Shown here: one piece after another, positions 6,027 to 19,897 of the stretch | Layout of the letters: each line of letters begins with the position of its first letter | Position numbering within the stretch: the first letter of the stretch is position 1 | Origin: a virus | DNA length: 23,386 bases | IMG/VR virus record: IMGVR_UViG_3300031997_002077 | Coordinates: 1 to 23,386 of that record | Direction: 5' to 3' (one strand) | The notes under the pieces: generated by a model | Told to the model about the DNA's origin: nothing | Seen by the model: the letters and a program-made list of their open reading frames with translations, nothing else | The model's database searches: none | Translations under genes and position numbers: made by a program

Positions 6027-6467
6027 ATACCACTCGAACTAGGGAAACTTCTAAGCAGAATTTACCCCATTACGAGAGCAATTGTGAACGCATGTACACA
6101 GCAACCAGAACGGCAGCAGCTGCTATGGGACTCGTGCTTAGCGAGCTTTTTGCAGCTAACATCTAGAAAGGAAACACTCGTGGTGCAAGAACAAGAACAG
6201 ATGGCATTGGGTTTGTATACGATCGATGACGTAGCTCTTACTCGGGCGTTGGTTACTAGAAGGTGGCTGCAGAGTACGGGACTAGATGGCAATGGAGGAA
6301 TCTTCCAACTACTACAGGAGGGTCAGAATGGTACAGCCGAAGAAAGCAGCTGCAGCAATCCCACAAACAACGATGATACCAGTGAGCAGTATCCTGATTC
6401 CGGAGGATGTACCCAACCGGATGAAGGGCTGGGACTCGGAGTTGAAGGACCTGACGGAGTCAATTAA
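6027..6467 (+). CDS. Hypothetical protein, possible AUA start
   Basis: The frame is open from 6006 to 6467 but has no ATG, GTG or TTG before 6084. An almost perfect AAGGAGG (6014-6020) sits 6 bases before an ATA codon at 6027, just where a start codon should be. From there the frame reads 'IPLELGKLLSRIYPITRAI' and continues as plausible helical protein through 'GLYTIDDVALTRALVTRRWL'. Alternatives are a GTG at 6084 (no good ribosome binding site) or the GTG pair at 6180/6183 after AAAGGAAA. The last ~46 codons overlap the ParB-like gene in another frame and are rich in Gly, Asp, Ser and Asn, which resembles read-through sequence. The function is unknown. It may be a real gene with a rare start, or a gene decayed by an ATG to ATA change. 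Confidence 0.4.
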   Translation: MPLELGKLLSRIYPITRAIVNACTQQPERQQLLWDSCLASFLQLTSRKETLVVQEQEQMALGLYTIDDVALTRALVTRRWLQSTGLDGNGGIFQLLQEGQNGTAEESSCSNPTNNDDTSEQYPDSGGCTQPDEGLGLGVEGPDGVN

Positions 6468-7245
6468 CACGCTGGGTTTGATTCAACCGATCGTTGTCAT
6501 GCAACTCGACAAGGAAGGACCGAAAGGAGAAGCATACCGCCTGGTAGCCGGGCGGCGAAGACTGGAGTGTATCCGGCGTCTCAAGCAAACGTCTATCAAA
6601 GCCGTTGCGTTACCCGCGAAGACCAGCAAGAAAGATGCCTACGGAGCGCGGGTAGCTGAGAACTTCGTCCGGAAAAACTATACTCCGCTGGAAGAGGCAG
6701 CACTGATCGATTACGCAGTAAACCAGCTTCACGTGACCCAGCAGGAATTTGCCGAGATGGTGGGCATGACTGCCGGCTGGGTTTCCCAACGCTTGACTGC
6801 TACCAAGCAACCAGAGGATGTTCAGGATGCTCTGGAGAAGGGAGACATAACCTTCACGCACGTGCGCGAGTTGGCACGTGTCAAGGATGACAAAGAGAAG
6901 CAGAAACTGCTCAAACACGCTGTCAAGGAAAACGCACAGGACTTCAAAGCGCGAGTCGAGACAGCATTGAGTGGTACCAAACCAGAAGGAGGTAGCGCGA
7001 ATGCTGGGAACAAGTCGAAGGAACCGGATCTGGACCGCAAGCCTCGGCCTCGTCGTGAGGTTCTGGCAACGCTTGCGAAGTTGGATAAAGCGCTGTCAGA
7101 CGTTACGCACGCTGAGAAGAAGGCCCAACTGGTTTGGTTCATCAAGGGAGTATCCTGGACTTACCGTCTCGCGGGTGCCAATCCACCAAAACCGGAAACG
7201 GTTGAGAGGTGCATAAGCCTACTGGAAGCCCGGGGAGAGGTCTGA
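6328..7245 (+). CDS. ParB-like DNA-binding protein
   Basis: This 305-residue protein has the ParB N-terminal domain: 'LIQPIVVMQL' (51-60), 'GRRRLECIRRL' (75-85, the GERR-like box) and 'ENFVRKNYTPLEEA' (111-124, the ENxxRxxLxPxEEA box). A helix-turn-helix follows at about 137-156 ('TQQEFAEMVGMTAGWVSQRL'). ParB proteins bind specific DNA sites and use CTP to slide along DNA; phage versions act in partition, transcription control or DNA processing. I choose the ATG at 6328 for its AGGAGG 6 bases upstream; 14 more residues are possible upstream in frame. The linker at about 220-245 is charged and probably flexible. No ParA partner is in the window. The gene ends convergently with the sigma factor gene, overlapping by 27 bases. 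Confidence 0.9.
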   Translation: MVQPKKAAAAIPQTTMIPVSSILIPEDVPNRMKGWDSELKDLTESINTLGLIQPIVVMQLDKEGPKGEAYRLVAGRRRLECIRRLKQTSIKAVALPAKTSKKDAYGARVAENFVRKNYTPLEEAALIDYAVNQLHVTQQEFAEMVGMTAGWVSQRLTATKQPEDVQDALEKGDITFTHVRELARVKDDKEKQKLLKHAVKENAQDFKARVETALSGTKPEGGSANAGNKSKEPDLDRKPRPRREVLATLAKLDKALSDVTHAEKKAQLVWFIKGVSWTYRLAGANPPKPETVERCISLLEARGEV

Positions 7246-8061
7246 CGAGCGCTCTATAGAGAGCTGATAGCGTAGTTGTTTCCTGATGCGTCGGAGCGCG
7301 TCCACCTTAACCTGGCGGACGCGCTCCGAGCTCACTCCCAACACACCTGCAATTTGACGCAAGCTCAGTGGGTCGCTAACCCAACCGAAGTAGGCTTTTA
7401 TGACGAACTGCTCCTTCACGGTGGGCAGCATCTTGATAAGCTGCCCTACTAACGCTCGACTCTCTTTGTCCATCAGTCGGCTGTCGATCGTTTTCCTACC
7501 ACTACCTGGTCGGTCGGTCAGATCATTCTCGTCCAAACAGGTAATGCACAATGCCTCGCAATTCAGAAGTCTCTGTATCTGTGTTGGATTCAAGTCAACG
7601 CATTTCTGCAGTTCCTGAACGGAAGCCTTGCGCCCTTGTTGGGACATGGCGCGTGTGTGTGCCTGAGAAATTTTGTTGATGACTTTCTGGCGCCACAATG
7701 GCATCGAGACCGTTCCAACACTGTACAATTCGTTCCGCATTTCCAGCAGTACCCAGCTAGTAGCATAGGATAGAAAGCGAGTTCCATAAGATAGATCGTA
7801 TCTATCGAAGGCTTTTAAGAGGCCCACATTTCCAGCAGAGATTAAATCCTTGGTAGTGTCCACGTCCCGAGAGTAATTCTTGGCAAGCTTGATAACAAAT
7901 CGCAATGCAGAGCCTAGAATACGTTCTCGCACTTGTGGGTCGCGTGTCTTGGAGAAATTGTGAAAAAGTGCCCGCTCATCACGAGCACTCAATATCTCTG
8001 TTTTCCCCACGTCGTGGTAATAGCGTGCGACGTTGGGGTCTTCAGTTTGGTTTCCCCACAT
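7219..8061 (-). CDS. Sigma-70 family RNA polymerase sigma factor
   Basis: The protein directs RNA polymerase to phage promoters. From the ATG at 8061 (280 residues), region 1.2 covers about 8-33 ('DPNVARYYHDVGK', 'ARDERALF'). Region 2 covers about 52-111 ('LRFVIKLAKNYS', 'DLISAGNVGLLKAFDRYD', 'RFLSYATSWVLLEMRNEL'), including -10 recognition. Region 3 lies at about 120-165. Region 4, with the -35 helix-turn-helix 'LSLRQIAGVLGVSSERVRQV', lies at about 232-263. The domain set is that of a primary or group 2 sigma factor without region 1.1. The frame is open upstream to 8259, but that part looks non-coding and region 1.2 starts right after the 8061 ATG; no good ribosome binding site precedes it, so the start is uncertain. 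The codons for region 4.2 contain a perfect 13-base inverted repeat. Confidence 0.92.
   Translation of the reverse strand: MWGNQTEDPNVARYYHDVGKTEILSARDERALFHNFSKTRDPQVRERILGSALRFVIKLAKNYSRDVDTTKDLISAGNVGLLKAFDRYDLSYGTRFLSYATSWVLLEMRNELYSVGTVSMPLWRQKVINKISQAHTRAMSQQGRKASVQELQKCVDLNPTQIQRLLNCEALCITCLDENDLTDRPGSGRKTIDSRLMDKESRALVGQLIKMLPTVKEQFVIKAYFGWVSDPLSLRQIAGVLGVSSERVRQVKVDALRRIRKQLRYQLSIERSSDLSPGFQ
7291..7329. repeat. Perfect 13-base inverted repeat inside the sigma factor gene
   Basis: TCGGAGCGCGTCC (7291-7303) and GGACGCGCTCCGA (7317-7329) are exact reverse complements with a 13-base spacer. They fall in the codons for the helix-turn-helix of region 4. A smaller hairpin, GCTCT/AGAGC (7251-7264), lies between it and the convergent ParB gene end. 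Both could act as terminators for the ParB transcript or fold in the sigma mRNA. No T run follows. Confidence 0.55.
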
Positions 8062-9242: not shown

Positions 9243-9279
9243 CAACAAGAGCGCTCGGGGTTACCGGGCGCTCTTGTTG
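9243..9279 (+). terminator. Strong hairpin terminator after the ssDNA-binding-like gene
   Basis: A 16-pair stem (9243-9258 with 9264-9279; 12 perfect outer pairs CAACAAGAGCGC/GCGCTCTTGTTG, one T-G pair, then CGG/CCG) closes on a 5-base loop GGTTA. It starts 12 bases after the stop codon. The T tract is weak (CCTTAAT), so it may be a partial terminator or an mRNA-stabilising hairpin that lets some transcripts reach the nuclease gene 26 bases further on. Confidence 0.75.
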
Positions 9280-16385: not shown

Positions 16386-16683
16386 CAACAATTACCGCGT
16401 ATACATCACGATTGCTGGTAGTCGGATTGCAGGAGCGGAAAATCATCGAGACGATCAGTTTATTACCATTCGTGGGGCGGCCTACATGGAGATGGATCCC
16501 TCGCAGACCAGAGTAAATTTTCACGCCATTCCCATGGTTGAACCAGAAAAACCTCTTCCCATCAGGGTGCAAGCTCTGCTAACAGATATACCCATGGCCC
16601 CCATGATTGAGGAGAGGTTTCGTCTGTACTTGGAGCAGTTAGACCTGGAAGCGCGTAAGCGCCAACTAGACAAAGGAGATTGA
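16378..16683 (+). CDS. Hypothetical protein, 101 residues
   Basis: Unknown protein. The GTG start at 16378 overlaps the polymerase end by 8 bases and follows AAGGAGGTG about 7 bases upstream, so translation is probably coupled. The N-terminal half looks beta-rich ('NYRVYITIAGSRIAG', 'QFITIRGAAYMEMD', 'TRVNFHAIPMV'). The C-terminal 30 residues look helical and charged ('EERFRLYLEQLDLEARKRQL'). There are no cysteines, signal peptide or membrane segment. The place right after the polymerase suggests a replication accessory, but nothing in the sequence shows a specific job. Confidence 0.7.
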   Translation: MDDNNYRVYITIAGSRIAGAENHRDDQFITIRGAAYMEMDPSQTRVNFHAIPMVEPEKPLPIRVQALLTDIPMAPMIEERFRLYLEQLDLEARKRQLDKGD

Positions 16684-16685
16684 GT

Positions 16686-16964
16686 ATGGCTATCAAAATG
16701 CTTCCCGCTGGCGTTGCACACTGTGGCATGTGTCCCTATTTTGCCTTTATCGGACGATCAGCTCAGGAGCCGGATAAGAAGTTGTATGCGTGCCGGTACC
16801 GCAATACGGGGGTGGAGAGCTCGCTGATCTGGACAGTCCCGGTCGCGGAAGAAGCGACCTACACAATTCCGGAAAGCTGCCCGTTATCGTCTGCCCCCGA
16901 GGGAGTGGTAGCAGTACCGGTTGCCGGCGCTGATGACGTGCCCGCTGAGATAATTCCAGTATAG
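16686..16964 (+). CDS. Small cysteine-containing protein, 92 residues
   Basis: I place the start at the ATG at 16686, 5 bases after GGAGA; a TTG two codons earlier is in frame. C13-x2-C16 ('HCGMCPYF'), C36 ('YACRY') and C65 ('ESCPLS') could form one zinc or iron-sulfur site. The spacing CxxCP...C...CP recurs in the 17328 protein and near the helicase C-terminus. The last ~25 residues are Val, Ala and Pro rich and probably unstructured. Function unknown. It is the last plus-strand gene before the structured non-coding region. Confidence 0.7.
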   Translation: MAIKMLPAGVAHCGMCPYFAFIGRSAQEPDKKLYACRYRNTGVESSLIWTVPVAEEATYTIPESCPLSSAPEGVVAVPVAGADDVPAEIIPV

Positions 16965-16995
16965 CGTATAACGCGTAGTGTGGTACCCTGGTGCA

Positions 16996-17058
16996 GTGTT
17001 TTGGCAAACACAGGCGATGCAACATCGCCAGCTTCTGCCCGGCGCAAAAGGCGCGCCG
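16996..17058 (+). ncRNA. Candidate structured RNA, module copy 1
   Basis: A GTGTTT/AAACAC hairpin with loop TGGC (16996-17011) is followed 1 base later by GGCGATG/CATCGCC with loop CAA (17013-17029). After an 11-base spacer comes GGCGC/GCGCC with loop AAAAGGC (17041-17057), extended by one C-G pair. The last two hairpins match those of copy 2 in order, in loop sequence (CAA versus TAA; AAAAGGC identical) and in spacer length (11 versus 12), while stem bases differ in a paired way. No promoter was found directly upstream. Strand is assumed from copy 2 and the neighbouring genes. Confidence 0.4.
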
Positions 17059-17126
17059 CCGTATAGCGGATCCCCACATAAGTAACGAGATCTGCAGGAC
17101 TTGAAATTCGCAGGGTACATCTTTAG

Positions 17127-17155
17127 TTGGGCTTGGTTTTGAGTTGTGCTATAAA
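17127..17155 (+). promoter_or_regulatory. Promoter upstream of the structured leader
   Basis: TTGGGC (17127-17132), 17 bases, then TATAAA (17150-17155). Transcription would begin 7 bases later at 17162, the first G of the first hairpin of module copy 2. It would drive the structured RNA and probably the 17328 gene. Confidence 0.6.
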
Positions 17156-17161
17156 CTCTAT

Positions 17162-17255
17162 GGCTGTGTAACACAGCCCACTGAGAGTGGGGTGGTGAGC
17201 AAAAGGCGCTCACCACCGCGTCGTCACGAGCTGGTCCAACGACTGGCTGACGACG
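17162..17255 (+). ncRNA. Candidate structured RNA or leader, module copy 2
   Basis: Three hairpins are stacked end to end. The first is GGCTGTG/CACAGCC with loop TAA (17162-17178). The second is a perfect 10-pair stem GGTGGTGAGC/GCTCACCACC with loop AAAAGGC (17191-17217). The third is CGTCGTC (17219-17225) pairing with GACGACG (17249-17255), topped by AGCTGGTC/GACTGGCT (8 pairs including two G-U) around loop CAAC, with a 3-base bulge. The predicted transcript starts at the first hairpin, a layout that often protects RNA 5' ends. The RNA may be an independent small RNA or the 5' leader of the gene at 17328. No known riboswitch or ribozyme family was recognised. Confidence 0.45.
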
Positions 17256-17291
17256 AACTGACGACGAACTGACGACGAAACTGACGACGAG
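17247..17291 (+). repeat. Four tandem copies of CTGACGACGAA
   Basis: Copies start at 17247, 17258, 17269 and 17281. The first three are identical; one extra A separates copies 3 and 4, and copy 4 ends in G. Every copy contains TGACGACG, the exact complement of the single CGTCGTCA at 17219-17226, so any of the four could pair with it. The 11-base period is close to one helical turn, which would place bound proteins on one face of DNA. Confidence 0.85.
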
Positions 17292-17327
17292 GTCTCATAA
17301 ATACGCAAGCCCGCGGAGAATTAAGAG

Positions 17328-17654
17328 ATGAGTGAGTTTGACAAGGCCCCGGTCAAATTGGAGTGTCGTTCCTGCCCGATGTTCGGAGAGACACTGTTAT
17401 GTGCCCTACGTGACCGACCGGTTTCTCCTACCAACACCTGCCCATTTGGTACTTTGCTATTCGAGCATCGAGCAGCCCTTCAACTGCTAGACCAACTCTA
17501 CCACCACTTTTGCGCAGATCCGTCTACCCTCCTGGATGAAGCCAATCGACTACTGCGGCGGACTAGCTATTATCAAAAGCACATCGACCGTTTTCGAAGT
17601 GGATTCAGGCCATACCCCCTAAGAGCAAAACAACGACACCACAAGGGAGCCTAG
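17328..17654 (+). CDS. Small four-cysteine protein, 108 residues
   Basis: Unknown protein. The ATG has GGAGA 8 bases upstream. The N-terminus has C13-x2-C16-x8-C25-x12-C38 ('ECRSCPMFGETLLCAL', 'TCPFG'), a likely zinc or iron-sulfur site. The rest looks helical ('ALQLLDQLYHHFCADPSTLL', 'EANRLLRRTSYYQKHIDRF') and ends strongly basic ('RAKQRHHKGA'), which fits nucleic-acid binding. It lies downstream of the structured leader and is convergent with the terminase gene: the two stop codons share the palindrome CTAG at 17651-17654. Confidence 0.7.
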   Translation: MSEFDKAPVKLECRSCPMFGETLLCALRDRPVSPTNTCPFGTLLFEHRAALQLLDQLYHHFCADPSTLLDEANRLLRRTSYYQKHIDRFRSGFRPYPLRAKQRHHKGA

Positions 17655-19858
17655 TTCGCGTCGTACAGCTCGAGGTCCTGGCGTGCAATCTTCATAGCCA
17701 GCCACGCAAAAACCTGGGCATGTAGGCAGTCATCAGGCGTCGATGGTGCATGACGCCAGACCTTTCGGGACACACCTCCCTGCCCTGTCATGGTGGACTC
17801 CTCGTACTCAGCCAGCATGTCCAGGAAGGGTAATCTCATCTGTGCTTCATTCGGGTAGATGCACCCCTGATGCTTTAGTACCAGCATGAAACTGTCAATG
17901 GCGGCTGTGCGATCGACCAGGTAGCGATCCTTTTTGTTCCACTTGAGCAGCTTCAAGAAAGACCCATACTGAACTTGGAACATCCGGTGCGCCCCCAGGG
18001 CGCGCATCAAGTGCGAGTTGGCAACCGCCCCTTCGCCAGCGTCGCCAACTACGATATCACAGCGGCAGGCGTTGAAAATCTTGGCAACCTCCTCAACGTT
18101 GGCAATGGGGTTGTCGCTGGGGAATATCTTGTAGTACAATGTTCGATACCGCCCATCCCCCGTATACCCGAACACCCAGGCAACTGTACGCGAAACATAT
18201 TCCGAGCCCCCTCCGGACCAGTCAACGCCGCCGGTAACGAACCGGCACTCCTCAACCTGTTCCGGGTCCAGGGGTGGGGACTCAGGAATACAGTAGTCAT
18301 GGCACATGGCCAGCAGCTCATCTTGCGAGATGAAGCGCGTGCCGATTGCATCACTAACGCCCAAGACCTCATTCTTGAACTTGCTCTCGGAGTACGTCTC
18401 GAGCTTGTCCAGAATGCGATCCCAGCGCTCCTGGTATTCGTTGTTGACCGGGAGCATGGGCTGGGAAACGTGGAAGCCCTTGATGCGAGTGTCCTTGGCG
18501 AAGTCGTACCAAAACCCCTCGCGGACATTGAGCCGCTTGCCACACTTGATGCAGATAACCCCGTGCTTGCCGATAGACCGTGCGCTGTCGATGAATTGGT
18601 GGCTGCTGCAGCCTTCACACTTCATCACCCATTCACTTCTACTGCTGCGCCCCCAGAGGTACTCGATGGTGTTCTCCATGGACTTGGGGGTTCCGCAGTA
18701 GTCCATGTAGGCGTACTTGGAGACAGCTGCGCACTCTTTTACGACGGGGATTACGGCCTCGTAGTGAATATCCTGGACCTCATCGACCAGGTTCCGGTCC
18801 GAAGTATTTCCGCGGACGCGATCGGGATCGTCCATGGCGTAGGACAGAACCATCAGGGACCCGTTCTTGAGCACCTGCAGGAGTACGTTGTTGGGCAGCG
18901 TCGTATCGATGTAGTTCTTCCGAATGTGCGGCGAGTAGTGGATCGTCTTGGTCAGCCGGGTGTTGGAGAACTTGCTCGTCTGTTCCTTGGTGGGCGTCAG
19001 ATAAAGCGTTTTGAAATGTGGTATACGAATAGAGTCGATGATCATTAGGTTGGCGCAGTAGGTACTGTTGTGGGTAACAATCCCCTCAGCCACAAAACTC
19101 TCGGTATCTTTTACAGAGATGTCATAGCACCACTGCTTTCCAATTTTTTCGATGGATACGACGCGGTCCCAATAGATATCGCGTCGTTCTAGGTGAAGAG
19201 CCAGCTCCTCGACCAAGCTTTGGTTATACTCTTCATTCCCACGGAAGTGCTCAACATATTTGGCCAGTTTGGTATAAGTCAGTGGGTACTCAGGACTATG
19301 TCGTTCATGGATTTGGTGAATGGAGCTATGGCACTCAGAAGGCAGTGTATCACAATCATCATTGGATCGCTGTGTAAGTACTCGAGACGTACCAGTGAAC
19401 CGTCCCCCCTGGCGCACAGAGGCTATACGCGTTCCGATTGTCAGCTTTCCTGCAGGAACCCACCGATCCCAGCAGCGAATGGGGTGCTCTAACCCAGCCT
19501 CCAGAACCAGCCCAAGCCGTGTCGTGATTCGCACACACGGCTTCTGGTAACGTGGAGATTTCCAAGTAACGGGTGCGCTGAGCAACGTAGCACCGTCCAC
19601 ACCCAAGGAGACGATGCGTTCCCCTACCTGGATTTTGGATATTTCTTTGGTATCTCCAGACTCCAGCAAGCAGGCTGTAGTCTCTACGCAAGTCTTCGAA
19701 ACTTGCCTCGCGGTTTTCAGCAATGTTTCCTGGGCATCTGTGTTGTAAATGGTATAAAAAAATGGATAGTCTTTTAGCGAGAAAGGGGCCCCGTCGAGGT
19801 GTAGCAACCTCTCTGCCAAGTGCGACCGTGAGTATTTTCCTATGCAAGTGGTTGTCAT
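17651..19858 (-). CDS. Terminase large subunit interrupted by an intein
   Basis: The terminase motor packages phage DNA using an ATPase and a nuclease domain. Before splicing it has 735 residues from the ATG at 19858, and about 527 after. The Walker A motif is split: 'TARQVSKT' before the intein and 'STYCANLM' after. Walker B is 'NLVDEVQD' and the coupling motif is in 'DYCGTPKSME'. A zinc ribbon ('KCEGCSSH', 'CIKCGK') sits between the domains. The RNase H-like nuclease shows 'GGVDWSGGG', 'VVGDAGEGAV' and 'PDDCLHAQ'. The frame opens 13 codons upstream at a TTG, but that TTG is the promoter -35 box. No ribosome binding site precedes the ATG, which lies only about 3 bases from the predicted transcription start. 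Confidence 0.92.
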   Translation of the reverse strand: MTTTCIGKYSRSHLAERLLHLDGAPFSLKDYPFFYTIYNTDAQETLLKTARQVSKTCVETTACLLESGDTKEISKIQVGERIVSLGVDGATLLSAPVTWKSPRYQKPCVRITTRLGLVLEAGLEHPIRCWDRWVPAGKLTIGTRIASVRQGGRFTGTSRVLTQRSNDDCDTLPSECHSSIHQIHERHSPEYPLTYTKLAKYVEHFRGNEEYNQSLVEELALHLERRDIYWDRVVSIEKIGKQWCYDISVKDTESFVAEGIVTHNSTYCANLMIIDSIRIPHFKTLYLTPTKEQTSKFSNTRLTKTIHYSPHIRKNYIDTTLPNNVLLQVLKNGSLMVLSYAMDDPDRVRGNTSDRNLVDEVQDIHYEAVIPVVKECAAVSKYAYMDYCGTPKSMENTIEYLWGRSSRSEWVMKCEGCSSHQFIDSARSIGKHGVICIKCGKRLNVREGFWYDFAKDTRIKGFHVSQPMLPVNNEYQERWDRILDKLETYSESKFKNEVLGVSDAIGTRFISQDELLAMCHDYCIPESPPLDPEQVEECRFVTGGVDWSGGGSEYVSRTVAWVFGYTGDGRYRTLYYKIFPSDNPIANVEEVAKIFNACRCDIVVGDAGEGAVANSHLMRALGAHRMFQVQYGSFLKLLKWNKKDRYLVDRTAAIDSFMLVLKHQGCIYPNEAQMRLPFLDMLAEYEESTMTGQGGVSRKVWRHAPSTPDDCLHAQVFAWLAMKIARQDLELYDAN
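19067..19690 (-). other. Intein in the terminase P-loop, 208 residues
   Basis: The in-frame insert starts with Cys (codon 19690-19688; block A 'CVETTACLLESGD') and ends 'SFVAEGIVTHN' before Ser (codon at 19066-19064). The His-Asn end and the following Ser are the residues used in protein splicing. Block B is 'VLEAGLEHPIRCW' and block F begins 'YWDRVVSIEKIG' and 'CYDISVKDTES'. About 80-100 residues between blocks B and F show no LAGLIDADG or HNH motif, so this looks like a mini-intein or one with a decayed endonuclease. Splicing should restore the Walker A sequence 'ARQVSKTSTYCA'. Confidence 0.93.
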
Positions 19859-19867
19859 TCTGATTCT

Positions 19868-19897
19868 ATCGTAATTGAAAGGAGAGAAAGGTGTCAA
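19868..19897 (-). promoter_or_regulatory. Consensus promoter for the terminase gene
   Basis: On the minus strand, TTGACA (19897-19892), 18 bases, TACGAT (19873-19868). The -35 box is a perfect consensus, and the -10 and spacing equal those of the 8237 promoter. Transcription should start about 1-5 bases before the ATG at 19858, giving a leaderless or nearly leaderless mRNA. The spacer lies on top of the ribosome binding site of the divergent MoxR-like gene. Confidence 0.7.

Follow-up and report, generated by a model that had tools for sequence, protein, structure and literature searches.

The noncoding gap that follows the polymerase operon in this phage is probably a two-domain member of an unclassified, modular family of structured RNAs carried by a clade of large uncultivated phages; we put the probability of this reading at roughly two in three. 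That the domains form a family, and that they belong to the strand of the polymerase operon, is very probable from sequence comparison. The most likely role is that of a protein-binding or self-assembling noncoding RNA. Four 11-base repeats in the gap, singled out by an earlier note on this DNA, are an expansion, specific to one lineage, within the second domain, M2, where they extend the 3' strand of the peripheral arm P5.

The window (the whole stretch analysed, a 23.4-kb IMG/VR record from an uncultivated phage) encodes an SNF2-type helicase, an RNase H-like (RVT_3) domain, PD-(D/E)XK nucleases, a ParB-like protein, a sigma factor, a DNA polymerase and an AAA ATPase. The convergent minus-strand gene was assigned, from its own sequence and its alignment with relatives, as the putative large terminase subunit. 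Its ORF carries an insertion of ~200 aa, with a Cys at the start and VTHN before a Ser at the end, which looks like an intein; the polymerase of the relative L003 has a large insertion too. Two small ORFs with CxxCP motifs border the gap. Neither matched a Pfam or PHROG family, relatedness between the two was undetectable, and an IMG/VR search with the protein of the downstream ORF gave no relative. Elsewhere in the window are two near-perfect long hairpins (16-nt arms, 94%), one intergenic and one within the 3' part of the sigma-factor ORF.

We found that the gap, folded as RNA, lies well below shuffled sequences in energy (z = -3.4). Sliding folds of 160 nt indicated that it is not uniquely stable within the contig and that the antisense strand folds equally well. 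Two domains, M1 and M2, are predicted within it, and their outer P1 stems have pair probabilities of 0.85-1.0 in the whole-gap ensemble. In both domains a 7-bp G-NWA-C hairpin starts 0-3 nt after P2, and P1 is accompanied by an A-rich junction whose last base before P1' is G (GAAATTCG-CAGGGTAC and TAAATACG-CAAGCCC). The P4 loop AAAAGGC is identical in M1 and M2, which suggests a duplication. A search for relatives with the AAAAGGC hairpin returned scattered matches and no relatives.

Table 1. Coordinates in the window of the predicted RNA domains, the repeats and the surrounding features.
Feature	Position	Strand	Details and basis
Noncoding gap, polymerase operon to 17328 ORF / convergent terminase gene	16965-17327	+	363 nt; RNA fold against shuffles
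Domain M1	16983-17118	+	P2+P3 model, 32.2 bits (training-set member); fold ensemble
M1 P1	16983-16990/17111-17118	+
M1 P2	16996-17011	+
M1 P3	17013-17029	+	CAA triloop
M1 P4	17040-17058	+	AAAAGGC loop
M1 junction	17103-17110	+	GAAATTCG
Domain M2	17129-17312	+	P2+P3 model, 20 bits (training-set member); fold ensemble
M2 P1	17129-17135/17306-17312	+
M2 P2	17141-17158	+
M2 P3	17162-17178	+	TAA triloop
M2 P4	17191-17217	+	AAAAGGC loop
M2 P5 hairpin	17219-17255	+	Arm CGTCGTCA (17219-17226), inner helix, CAAC loop, repeat copy 1 as 3' strand; folds
Four tandem CTGACGACGAA copies	17247-17290	+	Copies 2-4 are spare arm partners; TRF, constrained folds
M2 junction	17297-17305	+	ATAAATACG
Small Cys-containing ORF directly after M2	17328-17654	+	GGAG before start; ORF list, protein searches
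Small ORF before the gap	16680-16964		CxxCP motifs
Putative terminase ORF	17651-19897	-	Candidate intein
ParB-domain protein	6286-7245
Long hairpin	7291-7329		Within sigma-factor ORF
Long hairpin	9243-9279		Intergenic

More than 60 related loci were gathered by polymerase and terminase searches, and in many of these relatives the same place is taken up by hairpin-packed DNA of 0.3-1.3 kb or more, without convincing genes. Sequence comparison of the arrays gives one plan for the domain. A P1 stem and a flanking G are followed by the P2 hairpin and an adjoining 7-bp P3 with a G-NWA-C triloop, then by variable arms, an A-rich segment ending in G, and P1'. Counting P3 hairpins on the sense strand, we found 77 distinct ones in 84 kb of gap and 10 in 356 kb of flanking DNA, a density ~33-fold higher in the gap. 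Mispairs were G.U in 41 cases and A.C in 13, and the loop classes expected of the opposite strand were rare. The excess of G.U over A.C and the strand-specific loops therefore favour an RNA of the polymerase strand over sites in duplex DNA. Covariation within P3 is a biased measure because these hairpins were picked by complementarity. P2, which played no part in the selection, adjoins P3 on its 5' side in most modules.

A covariance model of P2 and P3, run over 886 kb, matched 106 sites at E values up to 2; nearly all of them fell in the gap, and many belonged to the training set. When 78 control loci from IMG/VR were seeded only by a P3-like string, none exceeded 25.5 bits and no arrays were seen, while M1, which like M2 belonged to the training set, scored 32.2 bits. 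P1 was recovered by looking for the segment that best complements the sequence 5' of P2, and before P1' there is usually a short A-rich segment ending in G, such as AACGAAG, CCAAAG, AAATACG or AAATTCG. Of the modules, 37% have both a P1 complement and this junction motif; in swapped controls the share is 0.8%. The motif was defined and scored on the same modules, except for those of array L068. Double changes between L014 and L016, which are 80% identical, were compensatory in 12 cases and broken in 8, compared with 10 and 28 in slid controls. Covariation over the full length of this pair thus points in the right direction, to a modest degree.

The arrays contain from 2 to at least 9 domains and turn up in most subclades, having been lost or relocated repeatedly. 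Among 43 relatives whose terminases were compared, the gap holds at least two P3 hairpins in 24 and a single one in 3 more. There is no gap in the near relatives L002/L008 and L004/L009, and the closest of all, L008 and L009, do not have the element here. Since few gaps align with one another, the homology of all arrays rests on architecture more than on sequence. A second array, L068, lies at bases 144500-150500 of a 180-kb record that also holds L015. Its modules, at least nine over ~2.2 kb, lie well away from the terminase gene and ~100 kb from the first array of the same phage, and the ORFs flanking the array had no PHROG matches. L068 was outside the definition of the junction motif; seven of its nine modules have strong 8-nt P1 matches, each of these with AG before it, while the strict motif pattern is present in only four of the nine. 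BLAST searches with two arrays found no matches in isolated phages, and the phage collection searched held no close isolate of the clade. One locus, L067 (QMZE01000001.1; 78,677 bases), is filed as an Archaeoglobales MAG contig; it coincides in length and match with the viral contig L050, so it is probably a phage contig binned in an archaeal genome.

This distribution bears on the possibility that the gap is simply a 3' stabilising or processing region of the polymerase mRNA, which would block exonucleases and act as a spacer between convergent operons. Its location fits such a role, since the polymerase operon ends there and, in several relatives, the terminase gene converges on it (the arrays of L003, L006 and L007 adjoin that gene); its frequent loss fits as well. 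A conserved triloop, the adjacency of P2 and P3, and the junction motif would be superfluous in a plain stabiliser, and one phage has a separate array ~100 kb away. We consider this explanation unlikely, although it is the strongest of the rivals weighed here.

Within M2, the repeats lie between P4 and the junction and form the 3' strand of an extra arm. The observation that four repeats follow a single upstream arm was borne out. Exact copies start at 17247, 17258 and 17269, and the fourth, CTGACGACGAGG, is preceded by one additional A, giving spacings of 11/11/12. TRF reported a period of 11 with 3.9 copies and 94% matches, and the best self-match over 31 nt at offsets 7-20 was 27/31, compared with at most 22/31 in 200 dinucleotide shuffles. 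The proposed hairpin of ~15 pairs was recovered as well: the arm is followed by CGAGCTGGTC-CAAC-GACTGGCTGACGACG, and its fold with copy 1 has 8 + 7 pairs, a 3-nt bulge and the CAAC loop. All four copies are perfectly complementary to the arm, in agreement with the suggestion that the other three are alternative partners. Constrained folds of the arm with copies 1 to 4 gave -24.5, -24.1, -24.6 and -21.8 kcal/mol, so that copies 2 and 3 are close to copy 1 and copy 4 is weaker. When the whole gap is folded as an ensemble, copy 1 is the arm's main partner, with a pairing probability of ~0.76; the values for copies 2, 3 and 4 are 0.14, 0.09 and ~0.

The earlier note offered an RNA switch with several registers. 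In the form weighed here, the arm would swap repeat copies and control the ORF at 17328, whose ribosome-binding site comes right after M2. A structured RNA is supported and the registers are thermodynamically possible, copies 1-3 being nearly equal in constrained energy; a GGAG also lies a few bases after P1', upstream of the ATG. Comparative support is absent: the repeats were found in this phage only, and the arrays of L003, L006 and L007 have no such ORF. In addition, the ribosome-binding site is left uncovered in every register, and the ensemble keeps P1 paired at ~0.99. A switch of this kind is thus improbable.

The note had also likened the repeats, as DNA, to origin iterons or to a regulator's array, for instance one bound by the ParB-like protein. 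A DNA element of this kind could be an origin or a hairpin-bearing region for single-strand initiation. The spacing of the repeats by one helical turn, the cluster of hairpins where the replication operon ends, and the ParB-domain protein encoded in the window would all suit this explanation. However, the repeat core has no further exact copy in the window, including near parB, and TRF found no array comparable to the 11-mers in the gaps of relatives. A 21-nt string across two repeats had zero matches among the IMG/VR contigs scanned. Cumulative GC skew reaches only a small local maximum at the gap, coincident with the change of gene direction. The wobble balance and strand-specific loops described above, and the second array far from the first in one phage, also weigh against a DNA site, and we regard this explanation as very doubtful. 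When related phages are compared, the 11-mer is not conserved and the recurring unit is the domain (P1, P2, P3 and junction). The expansion of the repeats was probably made by replication slippage, and copies 2-4 may serve as optional partners of the arm.

Returning to a modular structured RNA, the element would be transcribed from the polymerase operon and would work as RNA rather than as a DNA site. Its repeated domains could present many copies of one binding surface, to which a protein of the phage or of its host would attach, or through which the RNAs would assemble with one another. Tentatively, and at less than even odds, we infer that the array acts as a scaffold or sponge. The case is evenly balanced for a broader reading, a class of giant modular phage RNAs with 2 to 9 or more copies of one domain, up to ~2.2 kb, that are gained, lost and moved between phages and that would assemble or capture a partner in proportion to domain number.

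Our searches of open-licence papers found no description of such tandem-domain RNA arrays. The gap had no Rfam match at gathering level and the L027 array none at E<=1; weak Rfam matches, all to eukaryotic RNAs, were at chance level and were rejected. The Rfam models of GOLLD, ROOL and OLE stayed below the gathering threshold, and a relaxed search gave no match either.

Iterons and ParB sites of plasmids and phages resemble the direct repeats of the window in being spaced by one helical turn; unlike them, our repeats are not conserved in relatives, are absent elsewhere in the window and come with no strong skew signal. The packaging RNA of phi29 is a folded phage RNA unit of ~120 nt that can multimerise. 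Like it, the arrays often lie beside the terminase gene, but they are tandem and covalent with 2-9 copies, none is found beside the terminase of the nearest relatives, and Rfam gave no match to a phi29-type packaging RNA. Protein-sequestering RNAs of the CsrB/CsrC type carry many copies of one hairpin type per RNA, and by functional analogy the arrays do the same. In contrast to CsrB/RsmZ, the recurring loops are NWA closed by G-C rather than GGA, and the hairpins sit within closed multi-branched domains. Nearest among known RNAs are GOLLD and ROOL, which are large and elaborately folded noncoding RNAs of phages and prophages whose role is open (PMC12286853). The arrays would share with them the character of a large folded phage RNA, here predicted from sequence and folding. 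They differ in that a short domain is repeated 2-9 times in variable number, and no tRNA gene was found in the window. Few large structured RNAs have been described from phages, with roles still open, and the gap array adds a large noncoding element to this phage clade. Because domain number varies from 2 to 9 across relatives, the arrays provide a natural copy-number series for the question of scaffold, sponge or assembly.
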